The notes under the pieces: generated by a model | What the model was told of the DNA's origin: nothing | Database searches by the model: none | The model's input: only the letters and a program-made list of their open reading frames with translations | Translations under genes and position numbers: made by a program | Shown here: piece after piece, positions 127 through 64,000 of the stretch | Layout of the letters: every line of letters begins with the position of its first letter | Position numbering within the stretch: the stretch's first letter is position 1 | Origin: Vogesella oryzae | GTDB taxonomy: Bacteria > Pseudomonadota > Gammaproteobacteria > Burkholderiales > Chromobacteriaceae | Direction: 5' to 3' | Length of the DNA stretch: 64,000 bases | Assembly: GCF_902829295.1 (NCBI RefSeq) | Contig: NZ_CADEPL010000009.1 | Location: 1-64,000, forward strand

Positions 127-732
127 CGCGCGATGGGCATCGACGAGAGCCAGCTGCGCGACTTCACCTTTTCCACCACCGGTTTTCTCAAGGGCGAGAA
201 GTTGGCCGCATTGGTGAACCGGCAGGTAGACGGCAAGAAGATCGAGCAGATGGTGCGCAAATTCGGCGCGGTGGCCACCAATCTGGATACCGGCGCGCGG
301 GTGGTATTCCGCAGCGGCGATACCGGCACCGCGGTGCGTGCCTCGGCGGCCATTCCCAATGTATTCCAGCCGGTGAGCATCGCCGGCAAGCGCTATGTCG
401 ACGGCGGGCTGGTGAGCCCGGTGCCGGTCAGCGCGGCGCGCGAGATGGGCGGCGACGTGGTGATCGCGGTGGATATTTCCGCCAAGCCGGTAGGCAAGGC
501 GGCGGACAGTTTCTTCAGCCTGCTGGACCGCAGCCTGAGCATCATGAACATGGCGGCGCTGGCGCAGGAACTGAAGCAGGCTGACGTGGTGATCCGTCCC
601 AATGTGCTGACCATCGGCGCCGCCGATTTCGACGAGCGCAGCAGCGCCATCGCCGAAGGCGAGAAAGCCGCCCGCGCCGCGCTGCCGCAGATCAGGGCGG
701 CAATCAGCCGCTGGCAACAGCAGCATGGCTAA
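61..732 (+). CDS. Patatin-like phospholipase, 5'-truncated
   Basis: C-terminal part of a patatin/RssA-family serine acyl hydrolase. These enzymes cleave acyl esters with a Ser-Asp dyad. The nucleophile motif G-x-S-x-G (GTSAGS) lies at the fold-back point (from base 58), so everything before it, including the glycine-rich oxyanion loop, is missing. The later Asp of the DGG motif is visible in YVDGGLVSPVPV. The protein is closely similar to the product of the next gene, which starts 8 bp before this stop codon (ATG at 725), so the pair looks like a tandem duplication translated together. Without its N-terminus it cannot be told whether this copy also carried a lipoprotein signal. Confidence 0.85.
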   Translation, partial: TSAGSVVGAIYATGIDGEALRYRAMGIDESQLRDFTFSTTGFLKGEKLAALVNRQVDGKKIEQMVRKFGAVATNLDTGARVVFRSGDTGTAVRASAAIPNVFQPVSIAGKRYVDGGLVSPVPVSAAREMGGDVVIAVDISAKPVGKAADSFFSLLDRSLSIMNMAALAQELKQADVVIRPNVLTIGAADFDERSSAIAEGEKAARAALPQIRAAISRWQQQHG

Positions 733-1714
733 ACTGCGCCTGCTGCTGGCAACGTTGGCCGCTGCCGTGCTGGCCGCTTGCACTACGCCGCAACCGCCAA
801 CCAGCCCGGCGCTGCCGGCAGTCGCTTCCGCTCCCGCCGCAGCCAGCAGTCCGGTGGCCAGCGTGCCACCGCCGGCGGCCGCGCCTAAAGCTGCGCCGCC
901 GCTGGCCCGCCCGCCCGTGCGCGCGCCGCGTATCGCGTTGGCGCTGGGCGGTGGCGCCGCCAAGGGGTTTGCCCATGTCGGGGTGATCCGCGTGCTGGAG
1001 CAGGCCGGCATCCGCCCGGAAATCATCGCCGGCACCAGTGCCGGCAGCGTGGTGGGGGCGATCTACGCCTCCGGCATCAGCGGCGAGAAGCTGTACCGCC
1101 GCGCGCTGGCGCTGAACGAGGACGAACTGAAGGATTTCACCCTGTCGGCCAACGGCTTCCTGAAAGGCGACAAGCTGCAGGACTTCGTCAATCGCCAGGT
1201 TGGCCGCCGACCGATCGAGGCCTTGCCGCGCAAGTTTGCCGCGGTGGCCACCAACTTCGACAGCGGCGAGCGCTCGGTTTTCCGTAGCGGCAACACCGGG
1301 CAGGCAGTACGCGCCTCGGCGGCGATTCCCAATGTGTTCCAGCCGGTCAGCATCAAGGGGCGGCGCTATGTGGATGGCGGGCTGGTGAGCCCGGTGCCGG
1401 TGGTGGCGGCGCGCGAGATGGGCGCCGACATCGTGATCGCGGTGGATATCTCGGCCAAGCCGGTACAGCGCAAGAGCGGGCTGTTCGGCAATCTGGACCA
1501 GAGCCTGACCATCATGAATCAGGCGGCGCTGGCGCTGGAGCTGAAACAGGCCGACGTGATTCTGCGGCCGCGGGTGCTTGCCCTGGGGGCCGCCGACTTC
1601 GACCAGCGCCGGCTGGCGATACGCGAAGGCGAAAAGGTTGGCCGCGAGGCGTTGCCGGTGATCCGCCGCATTGTGGCGGCCTGGCAGCAGCGCGCGCAGC
1701 TGGCCAGCCGCTGA
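725..1714 (+). CDS. Patatin-like phospholipase lipoprotein
   Basis: 329 aa. The N-terminus is a lipoprotein signal peptide with lipobox LAAC (Cys19), followed by a Pro/Ala-rich linker to about residue 65. The patatin domain then shows the oxyanion loop GGGAAKG (about residue 75), the nucleophile motif GTSAGS (Ser about 105) and the catalytic Asp in DGG (about 217). The gene overlaps the preceding paralogue by 8 bp, and the two share long nearly identical blocks such as AIPNVFQPVSI and YVDGGLVSPVPV. Inference: an envelope-anchored esterase/phospholipase. The substrate is unknown. RssA-like proteins of proteobacteria are the nearest named family. Confidence 0.9.
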   Translation: MAKLRLLLATLAAAVLAACTTPQPPTSPALPAVASAPAAASSPVASVPPPAAAPKAAPPLARPPVRAPRIALALGGGAAKGFAHVGVIRVLEQAGIRPEIIAGTSAGSVVGAIYASGISGEKLYRRALALNEDELKDFTLSANGFLKGDKLQDFVNRQVGRRPIEALPRKFAAVATNFDSGERSVFRSGNTGQAVRASAAIPNVFQPVSIKGRRYVDGGLVSPVPVVAAREMGADIVIAVDISAKPVQRKSGLFGNLDQSLTIMNQAALALELKQADVILRPRVLALGAADFDQRRLAIREGEKVGREALPVIRRIVAAWQQRAQLASR

Positions 1715-1905
1715 GAGCATGTTCACGATCTGCTGCGCTTCGGCGATACGGCGTTGCATTCGACTCGGCGATGCGCATTGATGCCATGTCACAGCGCGCC
1801 CCTCAGTTTTCGTCTTGTCTCGCTCTAGCTCGCTAGATCGTGAACGCGCGCTAAGCGGCACGCACCAACCCCCTGATCCTGCCTTACACCGCCAGACGCC
1901 ACCGC
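1715..1905. repeat. Intergenic stretch with an 11-bp inverted repeat
   Basis: No gene seen. GTTCACGATCT (about 1720-1730) is repeated inverted as AGATCGTGAAC (about 1832-1842), separated by about 100 bases. The ends, just after a stop codon and before a convergent gene, would suit a small non-autonomous repeat or a long hairpin acting between the convergent genes. There is no target-site duplication that I can identify and no transposase. Confidence 0.35.
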
Positions 1906-2991
1906 TTAGCCGGTGGCGTTGTCGTTGGTGGTGATATCGAACAGCTGCAACTGTTGCGGCACGCGCTGCGCCTCCTGCAGCCGCACCCCGACCCCCAGTA
2001 AACGCACCGCACGGTTGCCGCGGGCAAAGCCGGTGGCCAGCAGGCCGTCGATCACCGCCTCGTCCAGTAATTGCGCCACGGTTTCCACCGTGGTCTGGCT
2101 GAAGTCGGCAAACTTGATCTTGATGTTGACGCCGCGAAACGGCGGATCGCCGGCACGGCGCAGGCGGTCACGCAGCCGCTGCAGCAGCGCCGGCAGTTCG
2201 GCGCGACAGGCGGCGAGGTCCGGCAGGTCGCGGGTGTAGGTTTCTTCCACGCTCACCGATTTGCGCTCGTGGTCGTTATGCACCGCGCGATGGTCGATGC
2301 CGCGTGCCAGCTCGTACAGGTTTTTGCCGAACTTGCCGAAGCGGCGCAGCATGTCCAGCAGCTCCAGCTGTTGCAGGTCGCCGCAGGTATGAAAGCCCTG
2401 CTGTTTGAGCTTGGCGGCGGTCACTTCGCCCACGCCCCAGATCTTTTCCACCGGCAGCACGCGCACGAAGTCGGCAACATCCTCTGGTCGTACCAGAAAC
2501 TGGCCGTCCGGTTTGTGCCAGTCGCTGGCGATCTTGGCGAGGAATTTGTTGGGGGCGATGCCGGCGGATGCGGTGATGCCGACCTCGCTGCGGATGGCGT
2601 CGCGGATCTCGGCCGCCATCAGGCTGGCGCTGCCCTGGCAGTGCGGCTGGCCGCTGACATCCAGATAGGCCTCGTCCAGCGACAGCGGTTCGATCAGGCT
2701 GGTGAAGCGCTGGAAGATGGCGTGCACCGCCTGGCTGGCGGCGCGGTAGCGGGCAAAGTCGGACGGCACGATCAGCAGTTCCGGACACAGCCGCAGCGCC
2801 AGCGACGATGGCATGGCGCTTTTCACGCCGTAACGGCGTGCCAGGTAGTTGCAGGTGGAGATCACGCCGCGCTGGCCCGGCTGGCCGCCCACCGCCAGCG
2901 GGATGTCGCGCCAGGCCGGGTTGTCGCGCATTTCCACCGCCGCGAAAAAACAGTCGCAGTCGATATGGATAATCTTGCGTTGCACTGACAT
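1906..2991 (-). CDS. dinB: DNA polymerase IV
   Basis: 361 aa, the usual length for Pol IV, a Y-family translesion polymerase that extends mismatched or damaged primer ends. The palm motif near the N-terminus (HIDCDCFFAAVE, metal-binding Asp) and the second acidic motif SLDEAYLDVS with catalytic Asp-Glu are intact, followed by a helix-hairpin-helix region (EKIWGVGEVTAAKLKQ) and the little-finger domain. The C-terminus (LQLFDITTNDNATG) holds a QLxLF-type clamp-binding motif (LQLF). It starts 18 bp after the stop of the Rdx-like gene, so the two are probably co-transcribed. No LexA box is visible in that short spacer. Confidence 0.95.
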   Translation of the reverse strand: MSVQRKIIHIDCDCFFAAVEMRDNPAWRDIPLAVGGQPGQRGVISTCNYLARRYGVKSAMPSSLALRLCPELLIVPSDFARYRAASQAVHAIFQRFTSLIEPLSLDEAYLDVSGQPHCQGSASLMAAEIRDAIRSEVGITASAGIAPNKFLAKIASDWHKPDGQFLVRPEDVADFVRVLPVEKIWGVGEVTAAKLKQQGFHTCGDLQQLELLDMLRRFGKFGKNLYELARGIDHRAVHNDHERKSVSVEETYTRDLPDLAACRAELPALLQRLRDRLRRAGDPPFRGVNIKIKFADFSQTTVETVAQLLDEAVIDGLLATGFARGNRAVRLLGVGVRLQEAQRVPQQLQLFDITTNDNATG

Positions 2992-3009
2992 GGTGCGGCC
3001 AACCCTGGT

Positions 3010-8860: not shown

Positions 8861-9235
8861 TTACGGTGCCTGCAAGTCCGTGGCGGCATCGCTGAGCAGT
8901 GGCCATAGCCGTTCGGCATCGGCCGGATCGAAGTCGGCGTGTTTGTGCTTTTTGATGCCGTGATCGGATAGTTCGATGCAGCGGTCGGCGCGAATGCCGG
9001 CCTGCAGCAGACAGCCCTGTACGCAGGCCAGCGGGCAGCCGTCCAGCGCCAGGATGCGGCGGCCGCTGCGCGCCAGCCGCAGCAATGCCGGCACCTGGCC
9101 GCCGACGCCGGCGATGCACGACATCTCGGCCAGACCGGCGCGGGTCAGGCGTAGCGCGAAGTGGTTGGCCAGCTGCGCGGCACTGGAACAGCCGGAGCAG
9201 GAATAGACCAGCGGCAGGGCGGGATCGGGCTTCAT
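8861..9235 (-). CDS. DGC-domain putative zinc-binding protein
   Basis: 124 aa. The sequence has the CSGCSSAAQ motif near the N-terminus, a second Cys in MSCIAGVGG, and the family-naming motif DGCPLACVQGCL. The arrangement fits the DGC family of small cytosolic proteins thought to bind zinc through conserved cysteines. Biochemical role not established. It follows rodA on the same strand but is separated from it by a terminator. Confidence 0.8.
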   Translation of the reverse strand: MKPDPALPLVYSCSGCSSAAQLANHFALRLTRAGLAEMSCIAGVGGQVPALLRLARSGRRILALDGCPLACVQGCLLQAGIRADRCIELSDHGIKKHKHADFDPADAERLWPLLSDAATDLQAP

Positions 9236-9292: not shown

Positions 9293-9330
9293 AAAGACGA
9301 TGCGGCCAACCCGAGAGGTTGGCCGCATCG
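9293..9330 (-). terminator. Terminator of the mre-rodA cluster built from an inverted TTGGCCGC pair
   Basis: 14-bp perfect arms (9298-9311 and 9317-9330) with a 5-base loop, starting 15 bp beyond the rodA stop. Each arm contains a full GGTTGGCCGCAT word in opposite orientation. On the minus strand the stem is followed by TCTTTTG. This copies the way DNA uptake sequences are used as terminator stems in Neisseria and Haemophilus. Confidence 0.8.
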
Positions 9331-9344
9331 TGTGGTGTGTAGGC

Positions 9345-10439
9345 TTAGCGGTTGCGGTTGCCGATACTCATCAGCATGCCCAGCGCCACCGCCAGTGACA
9401 CCGTGGCGGTACCGCCGTAGGACATGAACGGCAGCGGTACGCCGACCACCGGCAGGATGCCGGCCACCATGCCCATGTTGACGAAGGCGTAGACGAAGAA
9501 CGACAGCGTGATGGCGCCGGCCAACAGGCGGCCGTACAGCGTCTGGGCACGGGCGGTAATCAGCATGCCACGGCTGATGATGCACAGGTACAGCACCACC
9601 AGCGTCAGGTTGCCGATCAGGCCGAACTCTTCGGAGTACACCGCGAAGATGAAGTCCGTCGTCCGCTCCGGGATGTAGTCGAGGTGGGTCTGGCTGCCGT
9701 TGAGCCAGCCCTTGCCCCACGGCCCGCCGGAGCCGATGGCGATCATCGACTGGATGATGTGGTAGCCGTCGCCCAGCGGGTCCTGCATCGGGTCGAGCAG
9801 CGTCAGCACGCGGCGGCGCTGGTAATCGTGCATCATGTTCCACACTACCGGCAGGCTGGCGGCGAACGCCACCAGGCCGCCGATGATCACCTTCCACGAC
9901 AGGCCGGCAAAGAACAGCACGAAGAAGCCGGCGCTCATGATCAGCACCGCGGTGCCGAGGTCCGGCTGCTTCAGCACCAGCGCGCCCGGTACGGCGATCA
10001 GCAGCGCGGCCACGATGTAGTGTTTCCAGTTGAGCGTGGTCTCGTATTTCTGGAAGTACCACGCCAGCATCATCGGCAGCGCGATCTTCATGATTTCCGA
10101 GGGCTGGATGCGCACGATGCCCAGGTTCAGCCAGCGTTGCGAACCGTTGACGATCACGCCGAACAGCTCCACGCCGACCAGCAGGATCACGCCGATCGCG
10201 TACAGCGGCGGGGCAAAGTTCATGATCGCCTGCGGCCGCGCCTTGGCCAGCACCCACATGACGACCAGCGACAGCAGGGTATAGACCAGCTTGTTGTCGA
10301 GCTTGTACCAGCTCTGGTTGGAGGCGGAGTACAGCACCAGCAGGCTGAGCAGGAAGATGCCGCCGAGAAACGCCATCAGCCAGCCGTCAAACGGCTCGGC
10401 AATCGCGTCCCAGATGCGCTTAGCGAGCGGCTGATGCAT
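9345..10439 (-). CDS. rodA: Peptidoglycan glycosyltransferase RodA
   Basis: 364 aa SEDS-family polytopic membrane protein that polymerises lipid II for side-wall growth together with PBP2. Conserved SEDS segments are visible: NGSQRWLNLG, QPSEIMKIALP, KQPDLGTA, GDGYHIIQSMIAIGSGG, LDYIPERTTDFIFAV and the C-terminal PFMSYGGTA. It overlaps the end of mrdA by 20 bp and is the last gene of the minus-strand mreBCD-mrdA-rodA cluster. Confidence 0.96.
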   Translation of the reverse strand: MHQPLAKRIWDAIAEPFDGWLMAFLGGIFLLSLLVLYSASNQSWYKLDNKLVYTLLSLVVMWVLAKARPQAIMNFAPPLYAIGVILLVGVELFGVIVNGSQRWLNLGIVRIQPSEIMKIALPMMLAWYFQKYETTLNWKHYIVAALLIAVPGALVLKQPDLGTAVLIMSAGFFVLFFAGLSWKVIIGGLVAFAASLPVVWNMMHDYQRRRVLTLLDPMQDPLGDGYHIIQSMIAIGSGGPWGKGWLNGSQTHLDYIPERTTDFIFAVYSEEFGLIGNLTLVVLYLCIISRGMLITARAQTLYGRLLAGAITLSFFVYAFVNMGMVAGILPVVGVPLPFMSYGGTATVSLAVALGMLMSIGNRNR

Positions 10440-12886: not shown

Positions 12887-13795
12887 CTAGCCAGCATCCT
12901 CGTCGGTGGTTTTTTTCTTCTTCTTGACGGCCGGTTCCGGTGCCGGAGCCGGTTCCGGCGGCATGGCGGAACGGGCCGGCAGAATCAGCACGTAGCGGCT
13001 GGACTGCACCCCGGCCACGCTCTGGCACAGCACGCGGGCAAAGGCGGCACCTGCCGGGCGGTCGACGCGGGTGACCCGTGCTACCGGAATGCCTTCCTGG
13101 TACAGATCATCGATGCCGGAGGTGACCAGTTGGTCGCCCGGACGGATGTCGGAACCGGATGACAGGTAGCGTACCTCGACCCCGCCGCCATAGCCGTACA
13201 GCAGCGTGCGCTGGCCGGTGCGCAGGTTGACCACCGGCACCATCTGGTTCTTGTTGATGATCAGGGTGATTTCCGAGGTCAGCGGCTGCACGCGGGTGAT
13301 CTGGCCGATCAGCCCCTGCTCGTCGATGACCGGCAGCCCAGGCTTGACGCCGGCGTCCAGGCCCTTGTCGATGATGATCTTGTAGCTGAACGGATCGCGC
13401 GCGGTATACAGCACCTCTGCCAGTTGGCCGCGGTCGCTGCGGCCAACCTTGAGCTGGTTCAGCGCCTTGAGCTGTGCCAGTTCGCGTTCCAGCATCTGCA
13501 GCCGCATCAGGCGGCCGGACTGCGCCAGTTCCACGCTGCGCAGGCGGTCGTTTTCCTGTTTCAGTTCTGCCTGGGTGACGAAGAAATCGCCAATATGGCG
13601 GCCGGCCGTCAACGGCAGGTTGACCGCGCGCTGTATCGGGTAGAGCAGGACGGAAATGGCATCGCGGGCGCGATCCATCAGGCCGAAATGGCTATCCCCC
13701 ACCAGCAGCGCCAGCGAGGCGAGCACGCACAGAATCAGACGCGCACCCGGACCCAGACCCTGGCTGGTGAAGCTCGGTGTATTGGCAAAGTTCAT
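12887..13795 (-). CDS. mreC: Rod shape-determining protein MreC
   Basis: 302 aa. One N-terminal transmembrane helix (about 18-38), a coiled coil (about 70-115) and the periplasmic beta-domains with the typical DKGLDAGVKPGLPVIDEQGLIGQI. MreC scaffolds PBP2/RodA. The last 30 residues are a Pro/Ala/Lys-rich tail ending in five lysines and acidic residues, beyond the conserved fold. The coding sequence contains an inverted pair of the TTGGCCGC word (13424-13431 and 13439-13446). Confidence 0.95.
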   Translation of the reverse strand: MNFANTPSFTSQGLGPGARLILCVLASLALLVGDSHFGLMDRARDAISVLLYPIQRAVNLPLTAGRHIGDFFVTQAELKQENDRLRSVELAQSGRLMRLQMLERELAQLKALNQLKVGRSDRGQLAEVLYTARDPFSYKIIIDKGLDAGVKPGLPVIDEQGLIGQITRVQPLTSEITLIINKNQMVPVVNLRTGQRTLLYGYGGGVEVRYLSSGSDIRPGDQLVTSGIDDLYQEGIPVARVTRVDRPAGAAFARVLCQSVAGVQSSRYVLILPARSAMPPEPAPAPEPAVKKKKKTTDEDAG

Positions 13796-16941: not shown

Positions 16942-16965
16942 AGGTTGGCCGCATGCGGCCAACCT
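16942..16965. repeat. 24-bp perfect palindrome made of two GGTTGGCCGCA words
   Basis: Bases 16942-16965 read the same on both strands and consist of two head-to-head copies of the window-wide word, in the 66-bp gatA-gatB spacer. There is no T-run after it, so it is not a standard terminator. It could form a small hairpin in a gatCAB mRNA. Confidence 0.85.
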
Positions 16966-28601: not shown

Positions 28602-28824
28602 AGCACCGCATGGCTCCGCAAGGAGCTCGAGCGCAGCGAGCAGGCGCCTGTTTGCCCGAGCCGTAGGGCGAGTGGAGCGAAGCGTCAGGCGTTGATTTGC
28701 CCGCGCGCGTAGCGGCGAAGGAAAAACAGGCAGTGAGGCTCCACGGTTTAACGGAAAACGCTGCGGCCAACGTTGGCCGCAGAGATAGCAACAACGGGCA
28801 AGGCCCACGGTAGGGAAAGCAGAG
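28602..28824. repeat. Spacer with imperfect direct repeats and a 22-bp palindrome inside the dcw cluster
   Basis: 223 bp in a cluster whose genes otherwise overlap or nearly touch. About 28625-28660 and 28661-28705 are imperfect copies of a unit rich in AGCGA and AGGCG and ending in TTTGCCCG. CCTGTTT (about 28646) is repeated inverted as AAACAGG (about 28725). At 28761-28782 lies a perfect palindrome made of two TTGGCCGC words. No gene and no good promoter seen. It may be a small mobile repeat. Confidence 0.6.
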
Positions 28825-29916
28825 ATGGCAAAGCGTACGGTCATGGTGATGGCAGCAGGCACGGGTGGACACATCGTCCCCGGCATCGCCGTGGCGCGCG
28901 AGCTGCAAGACCGTGGCTGGAGCGTGGTGTGGGTCGGTACCGAGCGCGGCATGGAAAACAAGCTGGTGCCGCCGGCCGGCTTCCCGCTGGTGCGGCTGCC
29001 GTTCCACGGTGTGCGCGGCAAGGGCCTGCTCGGGTCGATCAAGGGCGTGTTGCAGCTGGGGCTAGCTTTCCTGCAGAGCCTGAAACTGATGTTCGAGCAC
29101 CGTCCGGACGTGATCCTCGGCATGGGCGGTTATGTCTGCCTGCCGACCGGTCTCGCCGGCGCGCTGCTGTGGAAGCCGCTGGTGATGGTGAATGCCGACG
29201 CCGGCCTGCTGCTGAGCAATAAGGCGCTGCTGCCGTTTGCCGACCATCTGGCCTGCGGTTTCGACGGCGAAGCCGCCAAATTGCAGAAAGCGGTGGTGAC
29301 CGGTAACCCGGTACGCGCCGAGATCGAACAGATGATGCCGCCGGCGGAGCGTTTCGCCGGCCGTCAGGGGCCGCTGCGCGTACTGGTGGTGGGCGGCAGT
29401 CTGGGCGCCAAGGTGTTGAACGACACCCTGCCGCTGGCACTGGCCGCGATGCCGGCGGACGCGCGTCCGCTGCTGACGCACCAGACCGGCGAGAAGAATT
29501 TTGATGCCGTGCAGCAGGCGTATGCCGCTGCCGGGCTGAAGGTTGGCCGCGATGTGACGCTGCTGCCGTTCATCGACAACATGGCGGCGCTGCTGGCCGA
29601 ATGCGACGTGATCCTGTGCCGGGCCGGCGCGATCACCGTCAGCGAACTGTGTGCCGCCGGCGTGCCGGCGATTCTGGTGCCGCTGGTGGTATCCACCACC
29701 TCGCACCAGCGTGATAACGCGGAGTGGATGGCAGCCAATGGCGCGGCGATCCACCTGCCGCAAAAAGAGATGAATCCGCAGCAACTGGCAACCCTGCTGG
29801 GCGGTCTTACTCGCCCGCAGCTGCAGCAGATGGCCGAACAGGCGCGCCTGCTGGCCAAACCGGCGGCGGCGGCCAAAGTGGCCGATCTGTGCCAGGCACT
29901 GGCGGATAGCGAATAG
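28825..29916 (+). CDS. murG: Lipid II synthase (GlcNAc transferase MurG)
   Basis: 363 aa GT-B glycosyltransferase. Glycine-rich loop [15 protein letters not shown] at the N-terminus, [23 protein letters not shown] and the C-terminal [23 protein letters not shown] that binds UDP-GlcNAc. Converts lipid I to lipid II on the inner leaflet. Starts 223 bp after ftsW. Confidence 0.97.
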
Positions 29917-45309: not shown

Positions 45310-46134
45310 TCAACCCAGTTGCGGGTAGCTCAGCAGCGCCAGATGCAGGCTGTTGAGCGCGCCATGCGCCAGGATCGCCCACCCTAGCTGCCCGCTGGCA
45401 CGGTAAATCAGCGCATAGCCGAGGCCGGCCAGACTGGCAGACATCACCCATACCGGCCCGCCGGCAGCATGGGCGACACCGAACAGCAGGCTGCAGGCCG
45501 ACATCTGCACCAGCGGCGGCCAGCTGGCGGGGAGCAGTTGCGGCAGGGTGCGGCGGAACAGCGCTTCTTCGGCGATACAGGTCAGCAGCAGGTTGCCGGC
45601 CAGCCAGTACGGCCACCACGTCGGCCATTTCACATCGATGCGTACCAGCCCCAGTAGCAGCGCGCTGGCGAGTGCCAGCAGCAGCAACAGCAGGGCCGAC
45701 GCCAGCTGCGGCCAACGTTGGCCGCGCAGCGCCGGCCGCCAGTCGTCAAACGCCAGTAGCAACAGCGCGCCGGCCAGCGCCTTGTCCAGCCCCCAGCGCA
45801 GCAGGTAGGGGCTGCTGTCGGCCGCCAGCCGGCCCTGCCATAGCGTCACGGTGTTGAACCCCGGCAACAAATGCAGCCCGAGCAGCAGCGCCAGCAACAG
45901 CAACAACCCGCGCGGGGCAGGTCGCTGCGGCTGGCGCAGCTGCCAGTACAGCAGCGCTGCGGCCAACAGCAGCACGGGCAAGGCGGAGAGGGTCAGCAAG
46001 CCGGCGGCTAGCGCGGCGGGCAGGGCGGCGATGAGCAGGCCGCAAGCGGCAGGGCGCTGGCGGGCCAGCAACAGCAGGCCGGCGGTGGCGAGCAGGGCGA
46101 AGGCAAGCAGTTGCAGCGGGGCGAGTGCAGGCAT
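45310..46134 (-). CDS. CPBP-family intramembrane metalloprotease
   Basis: 274 aa, strongly hydrophobic, about seven to eight helices. The three conserved CPBP (CAAX/Abi) motifs are visible in the C-terminal half: EExxxR in AEEALFRRTL, FxxxH in FGVAHAAGG, and HxxxN in HGALNSLHLALL. These form the catalytic Glu-His metalloprotease site in the membrane. Substrate unknown. The gene contains a perfect 18-bp palindrome of the TTGGCCGC word (45708-45725). It reads convergently with opp and follows secA on the same strand after a terminator. Confidence 0.88.
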   Translation of the reverse strand: MPALAPLQLLAFALLATAGLLLLARQRPAACGLLIAALPAALAAGLLTLSALPVLLLAAALLYWQLRQPQRPAPRGLLLLLALLLGLHLLPGFNTVTLWQGRLAADSSPYLLRWGLDKALAGALLLLAFDDWRPALRGQRWPQLASALLLLLLALASALLLGLVRIDVKWPTWWPYWLAGNLLLTCIAEEALFRRTLPQLLPASWPPLVQMSACSLLFGVAHAAGGPVWVMSASLAGLGYALIYRASGQLGWAILAHGALNSLHLALLSYPQLG

Positions 46135-46200: not shown

Positions 46201-48909
<2,709 letters not shown>

Positions 48910-49116
48910 CTTGTGGACATCCAGCGGCCAACGGCCGAATCGAAAAATGGGCCAGAGTTTAACACAGGCGAATCCCCAGTTAATGGGGGCGAGTTTGCAG
49001 CTAATCAAGAGCTGTGCTAACGGTCAGGCAATAAACCCTGGCCGGAACGTGGCAATCGGTATGGCTGGCGGGCATTTGGGCTACACTACACGCCGATTGT
49101 TTCGTCTTGTAAGCAC

Positions 49117-51002: not shown

Positions 51003-51179
51003 TCCGTGTGACGGCGCTTTTCGGCAATGGCCGGCGTGGCGACGCCGGCCATTTTTGCTGGTCTTGTTTAACGAAATCATTAAGCATTTGATGAAAAACA
51101 ACAACACAGATGCTTTAAGATTGCGGCCTTTGCTGCAAAGCGGCAAGAATGCGGTTTTTGCCTGTTCAGTGGTTTGAGG

Positions 51180-52808
51180 ATGTCGATTCCGTTTACGCGC
51201 CAACTGCGCCCCTTGTTGCTGTCTTTCATCGTTATCACGGTCACCCTGCTGCTGCTGCAAAGCGTCGGTGTCAGCGTCAGTCTGCAGCGGGTACTGGCCA
51301 GCAGCCAGCACGAGCATGCGGTCACCAGCAAGCTGACCGACAACATGAGCAGTCTGCGTTTCCACGTGGTGCAGATCCAGCAGTTCCTGACCGATGTCAG
51401 CGCCACCGGCGAGCGTGATGGCTTTGCCGATGCAGACGAGCACTACCATGCCGGGATGCAGAACCTGGACGCCATTGCGGCGCTGTCGCCGGAGCTGGGG
51501 CGCGATCTGGAGACGACGCGTCCGGCGCTGCAAGGCTTCTACGAGGTCGGCAAGCAGATGGCCGAGACCTATCTTGCCAGCGGTCGCGAGGCCGGCAACC
51601 AGCTCATGAAAGCCAGCGGCAGCGGCTTCGACGATCGCGCCGCCGCGCTGACCCGGGTGCTGGACAAGTTGCAGGCCGATGTGGCGGCCAACAATGCCCG
51701 GGCGGTGGCCGATAGCGAGGCGACGATAGAACACTCGCACCAGATTCTGCTGATTAGCGGCGTGCTGCTACTGGTGATGGTTGCCGGCGGCGGCTTGCTG
51801 CTGTATCGCCGGGTGTTCGGCACGCTGGGCGGCGAGCCGCTGGAGGCGATGAGCCAGACCCGCCACATCGCGGCCGGTGACCTGAGCCGCAGCCTGGCGG
51901 TGCCGGCCGGCCGGCAGGAAAGCCTGCTGGGCGCGCTGGTGGACATGCAGGACAAGCTGCGCGGCATCACCGGTCATATCCGCGAGTTGGCCGCACAGAT
52001 GCACGGCAATGCCCGGCTGCTGAGCAGTTCGGCGCAAGGGGTGCAGCAGGCATCGCACACCCAGGGCGAAGCTTCGCGCGCGATTGCGGTGTCGGTGGAG
52101 GAGGTGCTGCAAAGCATCGGCCAACTGTCCGACCAGCTGGAGCAGGTGAAGCAGGAGGCCTACGAGGCCGATGGCGCAGTGGTGGACTGTGCCACACTGA
52201 TCCACCATTCCGCCGACGGCATCAACGGTATCGCCGGCCATATCGCCACTGCCGCGCAGGCGCTGGAAGGGTTGCGCGAGCAAACCGCCACCATCGCCAC
52301 CATTACCCAGACCATCCACGATATTGCCGACCAGACCAATCTGCTGGCGCTGAATGCCGCCATCGAGGCGGCGCGGGCCGGCGAAACCGGCCGCGGCTTT
52401 GCCGTGGTGGCCGACGAAGTACGCAAGCTGGCCGAGCGCACCAGCCAGGCCACGGTAGACATCAGCAGCCAGATCGATGCGCTGGGGCAGGGCATGAACA
52501 CCGTGGTGAGCCGGATGCAGAGCAGTGTCACCGCCACCCGCGATGGCGTGGAGCAAAGCCGGCTGGCCAGCGCTGCGATCGGCGGCATCCGCGACAATGC
52601 GCGCCGCATCAGCAGCCATATCGAGGCGGTGGCGCTGGCGCTGCACGAGCAGCAGCTGGCAGTGCAGGACATCGCCCAGCGCGCCGAGGTGATTTCGGCG
52701 ATGACCGAGTCCAACCAGGGCAGTGTGGATGCCACCGCCAGCTCGTCGCAGCAGCTGAGCAGCCATGCCGACAGCCTGCACGAGGCGGTGGCGGTGTTCC
52801 GGCTGTAA
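51180..52808 (+). CDS. Methyl-accepting chemotaxis protein
   Basis: 542 aa. TM1 (about 14-34), a periplasmic helical ligand domain (about 35-185) of the four-helix-bundle type, TM2 (about 190-210), HAMP region and the signalling hairpin with the conserved tip [21 protein letters not shown] and [16 protein letters not shown]. No CheR-docking pentapeptide (NWETF-like) at the C-terminus, which ends in AVAVFRL. Ligand unknown. ATG at 51180 follows GTTTGAGG. Confidence 0.92.
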
Positions 52809-52811: not shown

Positions 52812-52833
52812 TTGCGGCCAACGTTGGCCGCAA
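52812..52833. repeat. 22-bp palindrome of two TTGGCCGC words
   Basis: Perfect palindrome at 52812-52833 directly after the chemotaxis gene stop, followed by a third copy of the word at 52850-52857 in CCAACGTTGGCCGCA. It is likely a combined terminator/word site, like that after rodA, with a short A-run on one side. Confidence 0.85.
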
Positions 52834-52854
52834 AAACCGCCCGCCAACGTTGGC

Positions 52855-52927: not shown

Positions 52928-54829
52928 TTAGGCTGGTTTGACGGCCAGACGGATCTGCTCGATGCCGACCGGATCGTCCAGCGTGGTCAGGTCGCCCGGG
53001 TCGCGGCCCTCGGCCAGCGCCTGGATCGAGCGGCGCAGCACCTTGCCGGAGCGGGTTTTCGGCAGCTGGTTGACGAAGTACACCCGCGCCGGGTTGGCGA
53101 TCGCCCCCAGTTGTGCCGCCACCTGGGCGATGACTTCCTTCTCCAGTGCGGCACGCTGCGCCGGATCATCCAGCAGCGCCGGATTCTTCACCACGGCAAA
53201 CGCCTTCGGTACCTGGCCCTTGAGGCTGTCTTCCACACCCACCACCGCCACTTCGGCGATGGCGCTGTGGCTGCTGACCGCTTCCTCAATCTCGCGGGTG
53301 CCGAGGCGGTGGCCGGCGACGTTGATCACGTCATCGGTGCGGCCGAGGATGGTGAAGTAGCCGTCGGCATCCTTGATGCCCCAGTCGAAGCTGGAATACA
53401 CCAGTTTGTCCGGAAACAGGCTGAAGTAGGTATCGACAAAGCGCTGGTCCTGCTGCCAGATGGTGCTCATGCAGCCCGGCGGCAGCGGCGGGATCACGCC
53501 GATCACGCCTTTCTCGCCGGGACCGACTTCCTCGCCGCTGGCCTCGTTGAACAGCCGCACGTCAAAGCCGTACACCGGCAGGCCGGGGCTGCCGAGCTTG
53601 ACCGCCTTCGGCTCGACGCCGTTGCACAGCGTCAGCATCGGCCAGCCGGTTTCGGTCTGCCAGTAGTTGTCCAGCACCGGAATCTGCAGCTCGCCGGCAA
53701 TCCAGCTGGCGGTCGGTTCGTCCAGCGGCTCGCCGGCGAGGAACAGCGCGCGCAGGCTGGAGAGGTCGTACTTGTGCAGCCACGCCGGGTCCTGCTTCTT
53801 CAGCACGCGGATGGCGGTGGGTGCCGAGAACATCACCGTGACCTGGTATTTCTCCACCAGCTGCCACCAGATGCCGGCGTCGGGGCAGATCGGCAGGCCT
53901 TCGTAGACCAGCGTGGTCATGCCGGTGAGCAGCGGGCCGTACACGATGTAGGAGTGGCCCACCACCCAGCCGATGTCGGAGGTGGAAAAGAAGCATTCGC
54001 CCGGCTTGCCGCCGTAGATGTATTCCATGCTCGCCGCCAGCGCCACCGCGTAGCCGCCGGTATCGCGCTGCACGCCCTTGGGTTTGCCGGTGGTACCGGA
54101 GGTATACAGGATGTAGCTGGGATGGTTGGACTCCACCCACTCCACCTCGGCGCGGTCGTTCAGGTGTGCTTCGCGCAGGGTGTCGTAGTCCAGGTCGCGG
54201 CCCGGTTTCATCATCGGCGCTTCGGCCAGCCCGCGGTTGACCAGAATCACCTTGCCGGGCGCGCTGCAGCCGGCCAGCGTCAGTGCCTCGTCCACCAGCG
54301 GCTTGTACGGGATCAGCTTGCCGCCACGCAGGCCGGCATCGGCGGTCACCATCACTTTCGGCGCGGCATCCTCGATGCGGGTCGCCAGGCTGGCCGGGGC
54401 AAAGCCGCCGAATACCACCGAGTGGATGGCGCCCAGCCGCACTGTGGCCAGCATGGCGAACACCGCCTCCGGAATCATCGGCATGTAAATCAGCACGCGG
54501 TCACCCTTGCCCACGCCCTGCGCCTTGAGGATGGCGGCAAAGCGCGCCACTTCGGCATGCAGCTCGCGGAAGGTGTAGCCGGTTTCGATACCGGTTTCGG
54601 TGGAGACATAGGCCAGCGCGATCTGCTCCGGGCGCTCGGCCAGATGGCGATCCACCGCGTTGTAGCACAGGTTGGTCAGTCCGCCGGCGAACCACTGCCG
54701 GAAAGGCGGCTGGCTGTATGCCAGTACCTGGTCGCAGGGTTTGTGCCAGTGGATGCGGCCGGCCTGCTCGCCCCAGAAGGCTGCGGGTTGTTCGATGGAA
54801 TGGCGGTGGAACGCCTGGTAACTCGGCAT
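52928..54829 (-). CDS. prpE: Propionyl-CoA synthetase
   Basis: 633 aa, the PrpE length (acetyl-CoA synthetase is a little longer). Activates propionate (and often acetate) to the acyl-CoA. AMP-binding motif YTSGTTGKPKGVQRD, DIGWVVGHSYIVYGPLL, NYWQTETGWPM, FDWGIKDADGYFTILGRTDDVINVAGHRLGTREIE and the C-terminal acetylatable Lys in PKTRSGKVLRR are all present. These blocks match E. coli PrpE very closely. ATG at 54829 with GGAGACACC ahead is preferred over 54898. No prpB/C/D is in the window. Confidence 0.9.
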   Translation of the reverse strand: MPSYQAFHRHSIEQPAAFWGEQAGRIHWHKPCDQVLAYSQPPFRQWFAGGLTNLCYNAVDRHLAERPEQIALAYVSTETGIETGYTFRELHAEVARFAAILKAQGVGKGDRVLIYMPMIPEAVFAMLATVRLGAIHSVVFGGFAPASLATRIEDAAPKVMVTADAGLRGGKLIPYKPLVDEALTLAGCSAPGKVILVNRGLAEAPMMKPGRDLDYDTLREAHLNDRAEVEWVESNHPSYILYTSGTTGKPKGVQRDTGGYAVALAASMEYIYGGKPGECFFSTSDIGWVVGHSYIVYGPLLTGMTTLVYEGLPICPDAGIWWQLVEKYQVTVMFSAPTAIRVLKKQDPAWLHKYDLSSLRALFLAGEPLDEPTASWIAGELQIPVLDNYWQTETGWPMLTLCNGVEPKAVKLGSPGLPVYGFDVRLFNEASGEEVGPGEKGVIGVIPPLPPGCMSTIWQQDQRFVDTYFSLFPDKLVYSSFDWGIKDADGYFTILGRTDDVINVAGHRLGTREIEEAVSSHSAIAEVAVVGVEDSLKGQVPKAFAVVKNPALLDDPAQRAALEKEVIAQVAAQLGAIANPARVYFVNQLPKTRSGKVLRRSIQALAEGRDPGDLTTLDDPVGIEQIRLAVKPA

Positions 54830-55110
54830 GCTGGTGTCTCCTGTGTCTTCGGCGTGCGGGTGACGCTCTTTTTTATCAAGCGGTTGCTTGTCGGACAAAG
54901 TAATGGCAGCGGCGGGGTGTGGTCAATCCTGGCGTAGCGCATGGGGCGGCAAGGCGGGTGCGGCGTTGTACAAATCCCGATAAAGCAGGCACTTGGCGTC
55001 TTGCCGGCCTGCTCCGGCAGCCGGCCGGCTGCCGACAAACACTGGCAGAAACGGGGTGCTTTGCAGTACTCTGCGTTACATAACAACCGCCGCTGTCGCA
55101 GGACAAGACC
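54830..55110. other. prpE/proA divergent spacer with a 20-bp palindrome
   Basis: 281 bp without a gene. 55015-55034 is a perfect palindrome (CGGCAGCCGGCCGGCTGCCG) about 77 bp before the proA ATG. It is followed by an AT-richer stretch with TACATAAC (about 55077-55084), a possible -10. The palindrome may be a regulator-binding site or a hairpin; no T-run follows. Confidence 0.45.
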
Positions 55111-57665: not shown

Positions 57666-57834
57666 CAGCCAGGCCGCAGGCCGCCAGCGCGTGGCCGATT
57701 TGCCACGCGATTAAAATAATTAACGTTTTTGTTCTGCATGGCGGAATGCGGTGCCTTTCTGCGAAACGACTGGCGCATAATCATGGCATAGGGCGCCAGC
57801 CGTGCGCCGTGAACCCGACCAGGAGAACAGTCTG

Positions 57835-59019
57835 ATGCAGCATCCCGTTCCCAGCGCCGAGCAGGCGCAGTGGCTGAGCGCCAACGACGTGCGCGATGTC
57901 GAGCTGGCGTTTGCCGACGTCACCGGCTTTGCCCGCGGCAAAACCCTGCCGGCCAAGGCTTTCGTCAAGGGACAGCAGCTGCGCATCGCGCGCGCCGTGG
58001 CCATCCAGTCCTGTGTCGGCGAGTTTCCGGATTACCGCTTCTACGGCGAGAACGATCCGGACGTGACCCTGCTGCCGGACATGGCCACGCTGCGCCCGGT
58101 GCCGTGGGCCGACACCCCGCGCGCGCTGGTGCTGTGCGACAACATCGATCACGACGGCAGCCTCAGCCCACTGGCGCCGCGCAGCGCGCTGAAGGCAGTG
58201 CTGGCGCGCTATGCCGCGCGCGGCTGGACGCCGGTGGTGGCACCGGAACTGGAGTTCTACCTGTTTGCGCCGGATGCCGATGCCGACGCGCCATTCCAGA
58301 GCCCTGCGCTGCGTGGCGCGCGGCGCGAGCGCGGCTTCGATTCCTTCAGCTTTAGTACGCTCAACGATCACGAAGCCTTCTTCGACGACATCTACCGCGG
58401 CTGCGAGCAGCTGGGCATCCACACCGATACCTGGGTGCACGAGATGGGCCCCAGCCAGTTCGAGATCAACCTGATGCACGGCGATGCGCTGGCGCTGGCC
58501 GATCAGACCTTCCTGTTCAAGACCCTGCTGAAGGAAACCGCGCTGCGCCACGGCCTGCGCGCGGTATGCATGGCCAAGCCGCTGGCCGGCGAGCCCGGTA
58601 GCTCGATGCACATCCACCAGAGCCTGGTGGATGCCGCCGGCCGCAACGTGTTCAGCCTGCCGGGCGGCGAGGCCAGTCCGGCGTTCCATCACTACATCGC
58701 CGGCCTGCAGCGCTATCTGGCCGAGCTGATGCCGCTGTATTGCCCCAGCCCCAACTCCTACCGCCGCTTCGTCAAGAACCTGGCGGCGCCGGTGAACCTG
58801 AGCTGGGGTATCGACAACCGCTCGGTCGGGCTGCGGGTGCCGGTGTCCGGCCCCGAGGCGCGACGGGTGGAAAACCGCCTGCCCGGCTGTGATGCCAACC
58901 CCTATCTGGCGTTGGCCGCCAGCCTGGGCGCCGGCCTGCTGGGGCTGGAGCAGGAACTGCAGCCGTCGGCGCCGGCGGTCGGCAATGTGTTCACCAGCGG
59001 CGATGACAGCAGCGAACTT
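57835..59019 (+). pseudogene. puuA: Glutamine synthetase-type (puuA-like) gene, C-terminus lost to an assembly artefact
   Basis: About 395 aa of real sequence. Glutamine-synthetase-family ligase of the gamma-glutamylpolyamine (PuuA) type: PELEFYLF, the ATP/metal region GEPGSSMHIHQSLVD, NSYRRFV and RVENRLPGCDANPYLALAASL are intact. Family members are about 440-460 aa, so roughly 50-60 residues are missing. From base ~59020 the frame runs into sequencing noise (a Ser/Phe/Leu-rich tail), so the gene itself is probably intact in the organism. ATG at 57835 is used, with AGGAGAACAG ahead. Other GlnA-like specificities cannot be excluded. Confidence 0.8.
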
Positions 59020-59216
59020 TCTACCACTCACTCACTGTACCCTTCCTTATCTTGCTCTGCTTTCCCTTTGCTAATCTTATCTTTGTTTCTTTTTTGTCTC
59101 CCTCTTCTTCCTTCCTCTTCTTTTGTTTTTTTTTTTTTTTTTTTTTAATGACCGGCCCCCCCCCGACTTCTCCACCCTGCATATCGTCGGCGGCGTCAGT
59201 TGTTTATAAGAGCCGG
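59020..59216. other. Untrimmed Illumina Nextera adapter read-through (assembly artefact)
   Basis: 59020-59125 is pyrimidine-rich noise, 59126-59146 is 21 T, and 59147-59216 aligns without gaps to the 70-base Nextera P5 + i5 index + read-1 + mosaic-end oligo (about 54 of 70 matches by eye). The index bases read CCTGCATA against S506 ACTGCATA. Read from the right, the order is insert, mosaic end, index, P5, poly-A, noise: the signature of a read that ran off a short insert. None of this is genomic. Confidence 0.93.
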
Positions 59217-59816: not shown

Positions 59817-59841
59817 GGTTCTCTCCCCAGTTTTGTCTATT

Positions 59842-59864: not shown

Positions 59865-59927
59865 TGAAAGACGCCGGCGGTCATGCCGGCCGCTACGATT
59901 TTCTGTCCAAATTACCGAAGGGCTGCC

Positions 59928-61124: not shown

Positions 61125-61145
61125 CCACGCGAGGCAGCAAACAGA

Positions 61146-61170
61146 AACCGGCCGTCACGGCCGGTTTTTT
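61146..61170. terminator. Terminator after rcnA, probably bidirectional
   Basis: 9-bp stem AACCGGCCG/CGGCCGGTT (61146-61154 with 61158-61166), TCA loop, then T (to 61170). It lies between the convergent rcnA and ABC permease genes. A short A-run on the left could also serve the minus strand. Confidence 0.88.
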
Positions 61171-61198
61171 CATGCCGTCGCCGCTGACGATGGCGGGG

Positions 61199-62320
61199 TC
61201 AGTCCAGCGTCTTGCGGAAGGTTTTCACCCCCACCGCCAGCACCGCCAGCATGAACAGCACAATCGGCCAGACGTGGGGCCACAGCAGGGTGATAGCGTT
61301 GCCCTTCAGCAGAATGCCGCGTACCAGAATCAGGAAGTGGGTCAGCGGCAGCAGGCTGCCGACATCCTGCGCCCACGCCGGCATGCCGCGGAACGGGAAC
61401 ATGAAGCCGGATAGCAGCATCGATGGCAGAAAGAAAAAGAAGGTCATCTGCATGGCCTGCAGTTGGTTGCGCGCCAGCGAACTGAAGGTGATGCCCAGCA
61501 CCAGGTTGGCACAGATGAACAGCAGCACCACGCCATACAGCAGCACCAGGCTGCCCAGCATCGGCACCCCGAATACCCAGCGTGCGGCCAACAGGATCAG
61601 CGTGACCTGCAGCAGGCCGATCAGGATGTAGGGCACGATCTTGCCGGTCATCACCTCGAAGGCGGTGGCGGGGGTGGCCAGCAGGTTTTCGAAAGTGCCG
61701 CGCTCGCGCTCGCGCGTCATCGCCAGCCCGGTCATCAGCACCATGGTCATGGTCAGGATCACCCCCAGCAGGCCCGGCACCACGTTATAGGCGGTTATGC
61801 CTTCCGGGTTATAGCGCTTCTGGATGCGCAGCTCGACTGCCGGTGTCGCCGGCACGCTCCGCCCCGGCAAATCCGCGGCGAATACTTCCCGCCCCAGATG
61901 GTTGAGTACCGAGATGGCGCCGCCCAGCGCCATCGGGTCGGTGGCGTCGGCCTGCACCAGCAGCACCGGCGGCGGGCCGCGCAGCAGATCGCGCTGGAAG
62001 CCCGGCGGGAAGGTCACCACAAACTGCACCTCGCCCATGTCCAGCAGGCGCTCGGCCTGCCGCTCATCGACACTGCCGGCGATGTCGAAATAGCCGCTGT
62101 TCTGCATCGCTGCCAGGTAGTCGCGGGCAAACGGGCCCGGCTCGGCCATCACCACCGCGGTGGGCATGTGCTTGGGGTCGGAGTTGATGGCAAAGCCGAA
62201 CAGCATCAGCTGCACGACGGGAATGCCGACGATCATGCCGAAGGTCAGGCGGTCGCGCCGCAGCTGGGTGAACTCCTTGATCATGATGCCCAGCCAGCGT
62301 TGCCAGGAAAAACGCGTCAT
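61199..62320 (-). CDS. ABC-2 type exporter permease
   Basis: 373 aa. One N-terminal helix, a large extracytoplasmic domain (about 45-175), then five helices typical of ABC-2 permeases of the YhhJ/YbhR type: GMIVGIPVVQLMLFGFAINSD at the start and MTRERERGTFENLLATPATAFEVMTGKI in the cytoplasmic loop. ATG overlaps the upstream ATPase stop by 4 bp. Acts with the ATPase and the HlyD-type protein as an exporter of unknown, probably hydrophobic, substrates. Confidence 0.9.
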   Translation of the reverse strand: MTRFSWQRWLGIMIKEFTQLRRDRLTFGMIVGIPVVQLMLFGFAINSDPKHMPTAVVMAEPGPFARDYLAAMQNSGYFDIAGSVDERQAERLLDMGEVQFVVTFPPGFQRDLLRGPPPVLLVQADATDPMALGGAISVLNHLGREVFAADLPGRSVPATPAVELRIQKRYNPEGITAYNVVPGLLGVILTMTMVLMTGLAMTRERERGTFENLLATPATAFEVMTGKIVPYILIGLLQVTLILLAARWVFGVPMLGSLVLLYGVVLLFICANLVLGITFSSLARNQLQAMQMTFFFFLPSMLLSGFMFPFRGMPAWAQDVGSLLPLTHFLILVRGILLKGNAITLLWPHVWPIVLFMLAVLAVGVKTFRKTLD

Positions 62321-63255
62321 GGCGTGGCTCCCGGCTGCCGGCGGCGGTAGTGCATCAGGTGGATGAAGGCGTCTTCCAGCGACGGCTCCAGCTGTTGCAT
62401 GGCCAGCTCACTGCCGGCCAGCGCCTGGCTCAGGCTGTGTTGCAGCAGCGTGCTGTCCTGGCCGCTGACATGCAGCGCGGTGCCGAAGCTGGCCACCAGC
62501 TCCACGCCCGGCAGCTGGCCGAGACGTTCGGCCAACCCCTGTAGCAACGGGCCGGTAATGCGCCAGGTGAACAGCTGTTGCGCCGCCACTACCTCGCTGG
62601 CGGTGCCGGACGCCAGCAGCTCGCCGTCGGCGATATAGGCCAGCCGGTGGCAGCGCTCGGCCTCGTCCATGTAGTGGGTGGAAACCAGCACCGTGATGCC
62701 GGCGGCGGACAGGCGGTGGATTTCTTCCCAGAAGTCGCGACGCGCCTTGGGGTCGACGCCGGCGGTCGGCTCGTCCAGCAGCAGCAGGCGCGGGCGGTGC
62801 AGCAGGCAGGAGGCCAGCGCCAGCCGCTGCTTCCAGCCGCCGGACAGCGTGCCGGCCAGCTGCTGCTGGCGCTCGAGCAGCCCCAGCTCGCGCAAGGTAT
62901 TGTCCACCGCCTGGCGGCGGTCGGCCATGCCGAACATGCGGCCAACGAAGTCCAGATTCTCGCGGATGGTCAGGTCTTCCCACAGCGAAAAACGCTGCGT
63001 CATATAGCCGACCTGGCGCTTGATGGCGCTGCTGTCTTGCAGCACATCCAGTCCCAGGCATTGCCCCGCGCCGCTGTCCGGGGTCAGCAGCCCGCACAGC
63101 ATGCGGATGGAGGTGGTCTTGCCGCTGCCGTTGGGGCCGAGAAAGCCGAAGATTTCGCCGCGGCGTACCTGCAGCGCCAGATCGCGCACCACGTGCTTGT
63201 CGCCGAAATGCTTGTTCAGGCCGCGCACGTCGATCACCAGATCTTCTTCGCTCAT
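62317..63255 (-). CDS. ABC exporter ATPase
   Basis: 312 aa. Walker A GPNGSGKTTSIRM, signature LSGGWKQRLALA, Walker B LLLLDEPTAGVDP and the switch His in STHYMDEAERC. The C-terminal ~80 residues are an extension outside the nucleotide-binding fold. ATG at 63255 (MSEEDLVID) is chosen because it overlaps the HlyD-like stop (ATGA); a reading from 63438 is inside that gene. Confidence 0.93.
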   Translation of the reverse strand: MSEEDLVIDVRGLNKHFGDKHVVRDLALQVRRGEIFGFLGPNGSGKTTSIRMLCGLLTPDSGAGQCLGLDVLQDSSAIKRQVGYMTQRFSLWEDLTIRENLDFVGRMFGMADRRQAVDNTLRELGLLERQQQLAGTLSGGWKQRLALASCLLHRPRLLLLDEPTAGVDPKARRDFWEEIHRLSAAGITVLVSTHYMDEAERCHRLAYIADGELLASGTASEVVAAQQLFTWRITGPLLQGLAERLGQLPGVELVASFGTALHVSGQDSTLLQHSLSQALAGSELAMQQLEPSLEDAFIHLMHYRRRQPGATP

Positions 63256-64000
63256 GGCTGCACCAGACGGATATCCAGCGGCAGCCCCGGCCGCAGCCGG
63301 CCGGCATCGGCGGCATCCGGCACCGCCTCGACGCGGAACAGCAGTTTTTCGCGGCTGCCCTGGCTGTAGATCACCGGCGGGGTGTATTCCGCCTGCGCGG
63401 CGATGAAGTCGACCGTGCCGTGCAGCGTCGTGCGGCAACCGTCACAGCGTGCCTCGATGCGTTGCCGCGGCTTGATGGCGGCCAACATGCCTTCCGGCAC
63501 AAAGAAGCGGATGCGGCGGCGCGCATCCGGCAGCAGGCTGGCTACCGGCGCGCCGGCCGGCACCCATTCGCCCGGCTGGTAGTAGGTGTCGGTGATTTCG
63601 CCGCTGTCCGGCGCCAGCACCTGCTTGTGCTGCAGCAGCCAGCGCTTCTGCGCGGTGAGGGCGTTGGCCGCGGCGTGGTCGGCGGCGGCCGCCTGCAGTT
63701 CGCCATTGCGACCGAGCGCCGCCTGATAAGTGTCGATCTGCTGTCGTAGCGCGTCCACTTGCGCCGCCGCCTGGTCGCGCGCGGCGCGGGCGGCATCCAC
63801 CGCCGCCTGCGACACAAACTGCTGGCGATACAGCGCCTGCTGTTGCTGCAACTGGGTGGCGGCCAATTGCAGGCTGGCCTGCGCCGCGCGCAGATTGGCC
63901 TGCAGGGTGGCGATCTCGCTGTCGCGGCGCGGCTGCTGCAGGTTGTGCAGCCGTGCCGCCGCGGCATCGGCCTGGGCCTGGGCTTGCGCCAGGGCCTGGC
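63252..64000 (-). CDS. HlyD-family periplasmic adaptor, cut by the window edge
   Basis: 249 residues of the C-terminal part are in the window; the start lies beyond base 64000. A long alpha-helical hairpin (about the first 110 residues seen) is followed by a lipoyl-like/beta-barrel segment (KQVLAPDSGEITDTYYQPGEWVPAGAPVASLL) typical of membrane-fusion proteins such as YhiI/YbhG. With the ATPase and permease it forms a probable tripartite exporter; the stop overlaps the ATPase start by 4 bp. Confidence 0.9.
   Translation of the reverse strand, partial: QALAQAQAQADAAAARLHNLQQPRRDSEIATLQANLRAAQASLQLAATQLQQQQALYRQQFVSQAAVDAARAARDQAAAQVDALRQQIDTYQAALGRNGELQAAAADHAAANALTAQKRWLLQHKQVLAPDSGEITDTYYQPGEWVPAGAPVASLLPDARRRIRFFVPEGMLAAIKPRQRIEARCDGCRTTLHGTVDFIAAQAEYTPPVIYSQGSREKLLFRVEAVPDAADAGRLRPGLPLDIRLVQP

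Follow-up and report, generated by a model that had tools for sequence, protein, structure and literature searches.

The first 64,000 nucleotides of contig NZ_CADEPL010000009.1 of Vogesella oryzae (the window) are densely marked with a word of about 12 bases, A[G/C]-GTTGGCCGCA, which we predict to be the DNA uptake sequence (DUS) of Vogesella, a mark that would let the bacterium recognize kindred DNA as it is taken up. We hold this function to be highly probable, with a homolog of the Neisseria pilin ComP, encoded in the same genome, as the most likely reader of the word. The prediction, already put forward in a preliminary description of the window, is supported by enrichment throughout the genus, the lack of strand bias, an even spread, inverted pairs in convergent spacers, the presence of competence genes and of the ComP homolog, and sister words elsewhere in the family.

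Enrichment of the word in the window and the genome

Exact counting of the short form TTGGCCGC gave 78 copies in the window, 40 on the plus strand and 38 on the minus strand, the first at position 202 and the last at 63859-63866. Dinucleotide shuffles yielded a mean of 7.66 copies (maximum 13, n = 100) and a third-order Markov model predicted 8.3. The preliminary description was right that copies occur in both orientations, but its count (about 65) and its expectation (4-5) were both too low. Longer forms stand out further, with 75 copies of GTTGGCCGC against 3.0 expected and 48 of GTTGGCCGCA against 0.5, by the same Markov model. On the 5' side of TTGGCCGC the base at -1 is G in 75 of the 78 copies, that at -2 is C or G in 58, and that at -3 is A in 51; on the 3' side A follows in 48. 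The form GGTTGGCCGCA, proposed earlier from flanks of G/C before and A after, is therefore better written A[G/C]GTTGGCCGCA, which brings the word to about 12 bases in full.

The whole genome (G000; 3,415,129 bases in 58 contigs) contains 1,899 + 1,906 copies of TTGGCCGC on its two strands and 3,490 copies of GTTGGCCGC (1,756 + 1,734); with their letters in reverse order, these words number 171 + 176 and 79 (46 + 33), respectively. This density, about one per kb, is far above what composition predicts. Finer counts were made in 446,060 bases of sampled DNA, comprising the window and 20 further stretches, to which the figures for this genome in the remainder of this section and in the next refer unless the window or the whole genome is named. 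Here GTTGGCCGCA occurs 322 times against 3.5 expected. Variants of it with one change at positions 3-11 number at most 17 copies each, with a slight excess at positions 10 and 11 and roughly the expected count elsewhere. The last base alone is loose (C 83, G 75, and T 17, against 7.0, 5.3, and 3.8 expected). Upstream, an A is preferred two bases 5' of the first G, with G or C beside that A. A run of C that topped the 10-mer count of this genome was set aside, as it came mostly from a run of G at a contig end.

Placement relative to genes and strands

A codon-model gene finder placed 312 of 497 copies within genes, in both orientations, 179 between genes, and 6 on gene edges. It replaced a greedy caller, dropped because it chose many antisense open reading frames, and the coding counts were redone with it. 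The intergenic share is somewhat too high because the codon-model caller misses expected genes; it leaves gaps at 23.6-25.0 kb and 27.4-28.8 kb of the window, where murF- and ftsW-like genes would be expected from the gene order. Synonymous shuffling of the genes gave a mean of 36.1 genic copies (maximum 52, n = 50) against the 312 found, so codon usage is no explanation of the word count. The preliminary description had named two ways in which its reading might fail, namely a count accounted for by a third-order Markov or codon model and a lack of enrichment elsewhere in the genome; neither occurred, as both models leave the count unexplained and enrichment extends through the whole genome.

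Copies are spread more evenly than chance, as had been claimed for the window: in 111 windows of 4 kb, the mean number was 4.46 and the variance 3.42, and the number per window increased with local G+C content (Spearman 0.60). Word-free gaps of more than 5.5 kb were found twice, once across tuf and genes for ribosomal proteins and once across clpX and lon (genes named by eye; L106:8720-15843 and L108:7247-14016). Perhaps strongly constrained codon choice leaves the word no room there.

We saw no bias toward either half of genes, no gene-strand bias, and, across 21 stretches with GC skew of one sign or the other, no consistent strand lean. These results bear on a Chi-like motif, an alternative raised in the preliminary description, or one like KOPS (FtsK-orienting polar sequences). 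A strand-directing motif could well be dense, genome-wide, and nonpalindromic, as this word is. Yet the strands carry equal numbers genome-wide (1,756 and 1,734), the polarity of Chi or KOPS is lacking in this assembly of 58 contigs with unmapped replichores, and the concentration of the word in convergent spacers and inverted pairs is unlike a polar motif, all of which makes this the least credible of the explanations we considered.

That concentration is marked. The word reaches 3.62 copies per kb in convergent spacers, 2.00 in tandem spacers, and 1.13 in divergent spacers, against 0.89 in genes. Among neighbors no more than 25 bases apart, 47 pairs are on opposite strands and 2 on the same strand; 34 of the 47 inverted pairs are intergenic, 14 of these convergent, and 20 of the 47 are one exact 18-base palindrome, GCGGCCAACGTTGGCCGC. 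The inverted pairs are thus associated with gene ends. Those noticed earlier in the window are present, three of them as this same palindrome (Table 1). Such pairs would also be the hallmark of a terminator or hairpin element that spread in inverted form and had no role in uptake. We find this very hard to credit, given that 312 of the 497 copies lie inside genes in both orientations, that the 47 pairs make up less than one-fifth of all copies, and that inverted pairs are reported as typical of DUS too (PMC3630211).

Table 1. Copies of the word and its inverted pairs in the window
Feature	Position	Strand	Context or basis
Word array, 78 TTGGCCGC (75 as GTTGGCCGC, 48 as GTTGGCCGCA)	202..63866	40 + / 38 -	Exact word count
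Inverted pair	9302..9326	- then +	Spacer between genes 8861-9235 and 9345-10439
Inverted pair	13424..13446	+ then -	Within gene 12887-13795
Inverted pair	16945..16962	+ then -	Spacer between gene ending 16926 and gatB-like gene (by eye) from 16993
Inverted pair, palindrome GCGGCCAACGTTGGCCGC	28763..28780	- then +	5' of murG-like gene (by eye) at 28825
Inverted pair, palindrome GCGGCCAACGTTGGCCGC	45708..45725	- then +	Within gene 45310-46134
Inverted pair	46234..46271	+ at 46234, - at 46264	Within gene 46201-49008, close to stop
Inverted pair, palindrome GCGGCCAACGTTGGCCGC	52814..52831	- then +	Convergent spacer, genes 51174-52808 (+) and 52928-54898 (-)

The pair at 28763..28780 may sit at a gene end, because the upstream gene was probably overlooked by the caller. 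An extra plus-strand copy stands at 52850, beside the pair in the convergent spacer. Separately from the word, 21 consecutive T and, after a gap of 9 bases, 9 C mark the end of gene 57802-59148 (59126-59164).

A ComP homolog and the uptake machinery

The preliminary description had suggested a check for pilus genes and a ComP-like receptor; pilus genes and a homolog of ComP were found. The genes for PilQ, PilP, and PilO adjoin aroKB (assigned by eye), and beside aroB and pilOPQ, at C22:14327-14743, lies a gene for a minor type IV pilin to which ComP is nearest by sequence. The best PDB matches of the Vogesella homolog, by sequence profile and by structure, are Neisseria ComP. The two proteins share the same minor-pilin fold (PDB 2M3K, 5HZ7, 2NBA; PF16732) and a common stretch around LLENAxFxExxYxxxGxFKxTSTxWPxLP; they differ in that identity over the aligned domain is 24% and in that the Vogesella gene lies beside aroB. 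When the Vogesella indigofera protein was used alone, major pilins outranked ComP.

PF16732 was rejected as a marker of ComP, as it matches 61 of the 61 genomes of the family. The protein of the window genome scores 18.6 bits and that of V. indigofera 46 bits against a gathering cutoff of 27.3, and the model also matches PilE-type pilins and pilins of word-free genera. The sole above-threshold match in the window genome (on C21) is of PilE type and comes from a cluster of minor pilins; the aroB-adjacent pilin was preferred to it.

ComEC and DprA are each encoded once in the window genome (188.8 and 254.8 bits); we take their presence as permissive evidence only, because the two families also match 10 and 11 of 14 control genomes. 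In the mechanism that we infer, the ComP-homologous pilin would bind double-stranded DNA carrying the word at the pilus, and pilus retraction via PilQ, followed by ComEC transport, would import the bound DNA. Recombination would then replace homologous stretches, with better-imported copies accumulating in the shared genome, by analogy with Neisseria.

The gene before comP encodes a GspH-like pilin, and a run of 9-10 G closely precedes that gene in two genomes, the window genome and G059, which are sisters in the pilin tree (L060:952-960, L066:922-931). No such run was found there in the other 11 Vogesella genomes. Where it occurs, it could make competence phase-variable.

Distribution of the words in the family and order

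All 13 Vogesella genomes carry between 2,312 and 3,490 copies of GTTGGCCGC, against 57-313 in each of the other 48 genomes among the 61 of the family. When 10-mers were counted blindly in 28 genomes, including 15 from other genera (20-60 kb each, and 446 kb for the window genome), sister words, GTTGGCCGAA or GTTGGCCGAG, emerged in genomes of six other genera, labeled here g2, g5, g6, g7, g9, and g10. GTTGGCCGAA or an overlapping word tops the count in G010 (g2), G037 (g6), G038 (g7), G045 (g9), and G046 and G048 (g10), and GTTGGCCGAG does so in both g5 genomes. The same count showed nothing comparable in G002 (g2), G017 and G024 (g3), G031 and G033 (g4), or G039 and G042 (g8); the top 10-mer of G033 is a short tandem repeat and was dismissed as an uptake-type word.

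Genome-wide, GTTGGCCGAR occurs 1,386 times in G010, 2,017 and 1,668 times in g5, 744 and 2,223 times in g6, 1,258 times in g7, 1,872 times in g9, and 1,152, 238, and 942 times in g10. Two g8 genomes (G040, G043) show a weak excess (154 and 130), the remaining 36 non-Vogesella genomes of the family have at most 93 copies, and Vogesella has 24-59. The low counts in G040, G043, and the g10 genome with 238 copies (G047) may trace back to an uptake system that has been lost or is weakening, its words now in decay. Genus g2 is split, with one genome carrying the word and nine without it.

One word is therefore constant within Vogesella and dialects follow clades across the family, the last two bases varying between genera as in DUS dialects. 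The base at +13 also depends on the genus, being G in 60-70% of copies in L146-L148 (g7), L152-L157 (g10), and L164-L165 (G010), so the dialects may run past 12 bases.

This variation counts against maintenance by restriction-modification or methylation. Abundant short words are known from cyanobacteria, where HIP1 (highly iterated palindrome 1), a very abundant palindromic octamer, has been proposed to be kept in that way; it is not known to have a receptor or dialects that keep step with a pilin. The TGGCCG within our word is a YGGCCR site, and the preliminary description had accordingly offered a restriction-related word as an alternative. The Vogesella word, however, is nonpalindromic and 10-12 bases long, its last two bases differ by genus in the fashion of DUS dialects, and the other YGGCCR sites fall below expectation rather than being enriched (TGGCCA 405 against 567; CGGCCG 554 against 879). 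We judge this explanation to be most improbable.

Beyond the family, a sample of 300 genomes of the order, just 9 of them from this family, contained none with more than 254 copies of GTTGGCCGC apart from 4 Vogesella and none with more than 104 of GTTGGCCGAR apart from G010. As a positive control, the blind count was applied to 8 genomes of family f43 and recovered known dialects in 7 of them: GCCGTCTGAA in five (just 5 copies in one of these) and GCAGCCTGAA and GTCGTCTGAA in one each, with none in G146. Because known dialect words emerge there, we treat f43 as Neisseriaceae. In 31 genomes from other families, sampled at 20 kb each except for one at 40 kb, no such word was found. The strongest repeat among them, around AAAGTCGGCGCTGRCGG in G205 of family f20 (L236), is dispersed, with 8 copies in 20 kb that share a single strand; it is part of a longer repeat, and its strand bias makes it unlike an uptake word. 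Two further repeats that were inspected proved to be local or tandem. Family f40 has a ComP-like pilin, yet 60 kb of sequence taken from two of its genomes showed no overrepresented word. Its pilins (L180, L184, L185) share a portion of the ComP motif, which in two of the three reads NAQFMEKWY...AWPALP.

The best ComP-like pilin was examined in 54 of the 61 genomes of the family; the others (G011, G014-G016, G023, G040, G043) had no full-length match among those listed. Genomes with more than 2,000 copies of GTTGGCCGC or more than 700 of GTTGGCCGAR were scored as positive, which gave 22 positives and 32 negatives. An NxDx[G/D] motif is present in 21 of the 22 positives (the exception being G045) and in 1 of the 32 negatives (G047, 238 copies), with two negatives that had no readable sequence (G039, G041) scored as lacking it by default. 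A K or R follows a conserved Y/F in 21 positives (the exception being G010) and again in one negative, G047; the pattern was absent altogether from 7 of the 32 negatives, and the residue of G059, where automatic reading fell on an adjacent position, was read as K by eye. Across the family, the words thus go with the Y/F-K/R residue and the NxDxG motif of the ComP homolog, with few exceptions. Few independent lineages are involved, so we take the association as a lead, not as proof.

Relation to Neisseria DUS

Eight DUS dialects are described in Neisseriaceae (Frye et al. 2013, PMC3630211). Each of them carries CTG at +6 to +8 (PMC3630211), and this triplet is described as an invariant, essential core (PMC3630211, PMC12061091, PMC7371117). 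The first of these sources reports five Chromobacterium-group genomes without DUS, dates the origin of DUS after the split from Chromobacterium violaceum, and states that BLAST gave no ComP in that species (PMC3630211). As far as our searches show, DUS have so far been described in Neisseriaceae only. No published report of the present words was found in the literature searched, with supplements and most subscription papers and preprints lying outside the search; this agrees with the earlier statement that Chromobacteriaceae had no known dialect with such a core.

The Vogesella word shares with DUS a contiguous length of about 12 bases and a copy number in the thousands, with copies on both strands, inside genes as well as between them, and in inverted pairs at the ends of genes; a single word dominates in each species, the dialects follow clades, and a ComP is encoded in the genome. 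Words of the family and DUS align without gaps at the same length, register, and strand, in the common frame A-N-G-Y-N-R-N-C-Y-G-M-R. The family word AGGTTGGCCGAA is identical to mucDUS and to simDUS at 9 of 12 positions, on the same strand and in the same register, and the Vogesella and g5 words reach at best 8 of 12; the seven neisserial dialects compared (wadDUS was left out) differ from each other at up to 5 of 12. Two further differences are the G at +5, absent from all seven, and the host family, Chromobacteriaceae. The uptake signal sequence (USS) of Pasteurellaceae, AAGTGCGGT or ACAAGCGGT (PMC12616744), is also a genome-wide tag, and the reverse complement of the Vogesella word, TGCGGCCAAC, contains the GCGG of the USS inner core. 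That overlap is probably due to chance, because GCGG is missing from the family's sister words.

Several observations speak against a ComP-read DUS and would fit an uptake sequence of independent origin, read by another pilin and resembling Neisseria DUS by chance. The core is CCG, not CTG, with C at +7 where every published dialect has T, and in the sampled Vogesella DNA the Neisseria-like GTTGGCTGCA shows no excess (4 found against 2.7 expected), nor does GCCGTCTGAA. Permuted words, compared with any of the seven dialects on both strands at seven offsets, match the 9 of 12 of AGGTTGGCCGAA in 237 of 20,000 cases and the 8 of 12 of the Vogesella and g5 words in 1,626 and 1,250 of 20,000. Two disulfides are reported as crucial in Neisseria ComP (PMC12061091), whereas the Vogesella homolog has only one conserved cysteine pair, C128 and C137; in f43 genome G220, which carries the kingDUS word, ComP likewise has the C-terminal pair only (by eye). 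Of the basic contact residues R78, K94, and K108 (PMC12061091), placed on the alignment by hand counting, K94 corresponds to R in 13 of 13 Vogesella, and R78 and K108 are not conserved. Finally, in the Vogesella loci inspected a GspH-family pilin gene lies directly 5' of comP and might encode the receptor.

We nevertheless consider an independent origin unlikely. Homology to ComP is strong by sequence and by fold; the length, register, and strand of DUS are all kept; and the words follow ComP features through the family. In the eight other genera compared, moreover, the ComP homolog lies beside PilX- or PilY1-like genes and away from aroB (by eye), and in g9 a second pilin adjoins it. A DUS read by the ComP homolog remains our preferred interpretation. 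The word matches DUS in nearly all respects visible in sequence and is probably of common descent with it, which the permutation rates make likely but do not prove. As the CTG core held to be general for DUS is absent, we set the Vogesella word down as a DUS-like variant.

Implications for the origin and loss of uptake systems

On this interpretation, the words constitute new dialects outside Neisseriaceae, and they probably belong to an older system that was lost in several genera. With some reserve, we favor a history in which the ComP-DUS system predates the split between Neisseriaceae and Chromobacteriaceae, with an ancestral word like AGGTTGGCCGAA, an essential core that is C-Y-G and not CTG, and the loss of words from whole genera, with the Y/F-K and NxDxG stretches of the receptor changing alongside. 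Three new CTG-less dialects with homologous putative receptors would provide an outgroup for studying the joint change of word and receptor as well as the beginnings and the loss of such a system, and they amount to a natural experiment on the bases that individual ComP residues read. Within g2 alone, genomes with the word and without it both occur.

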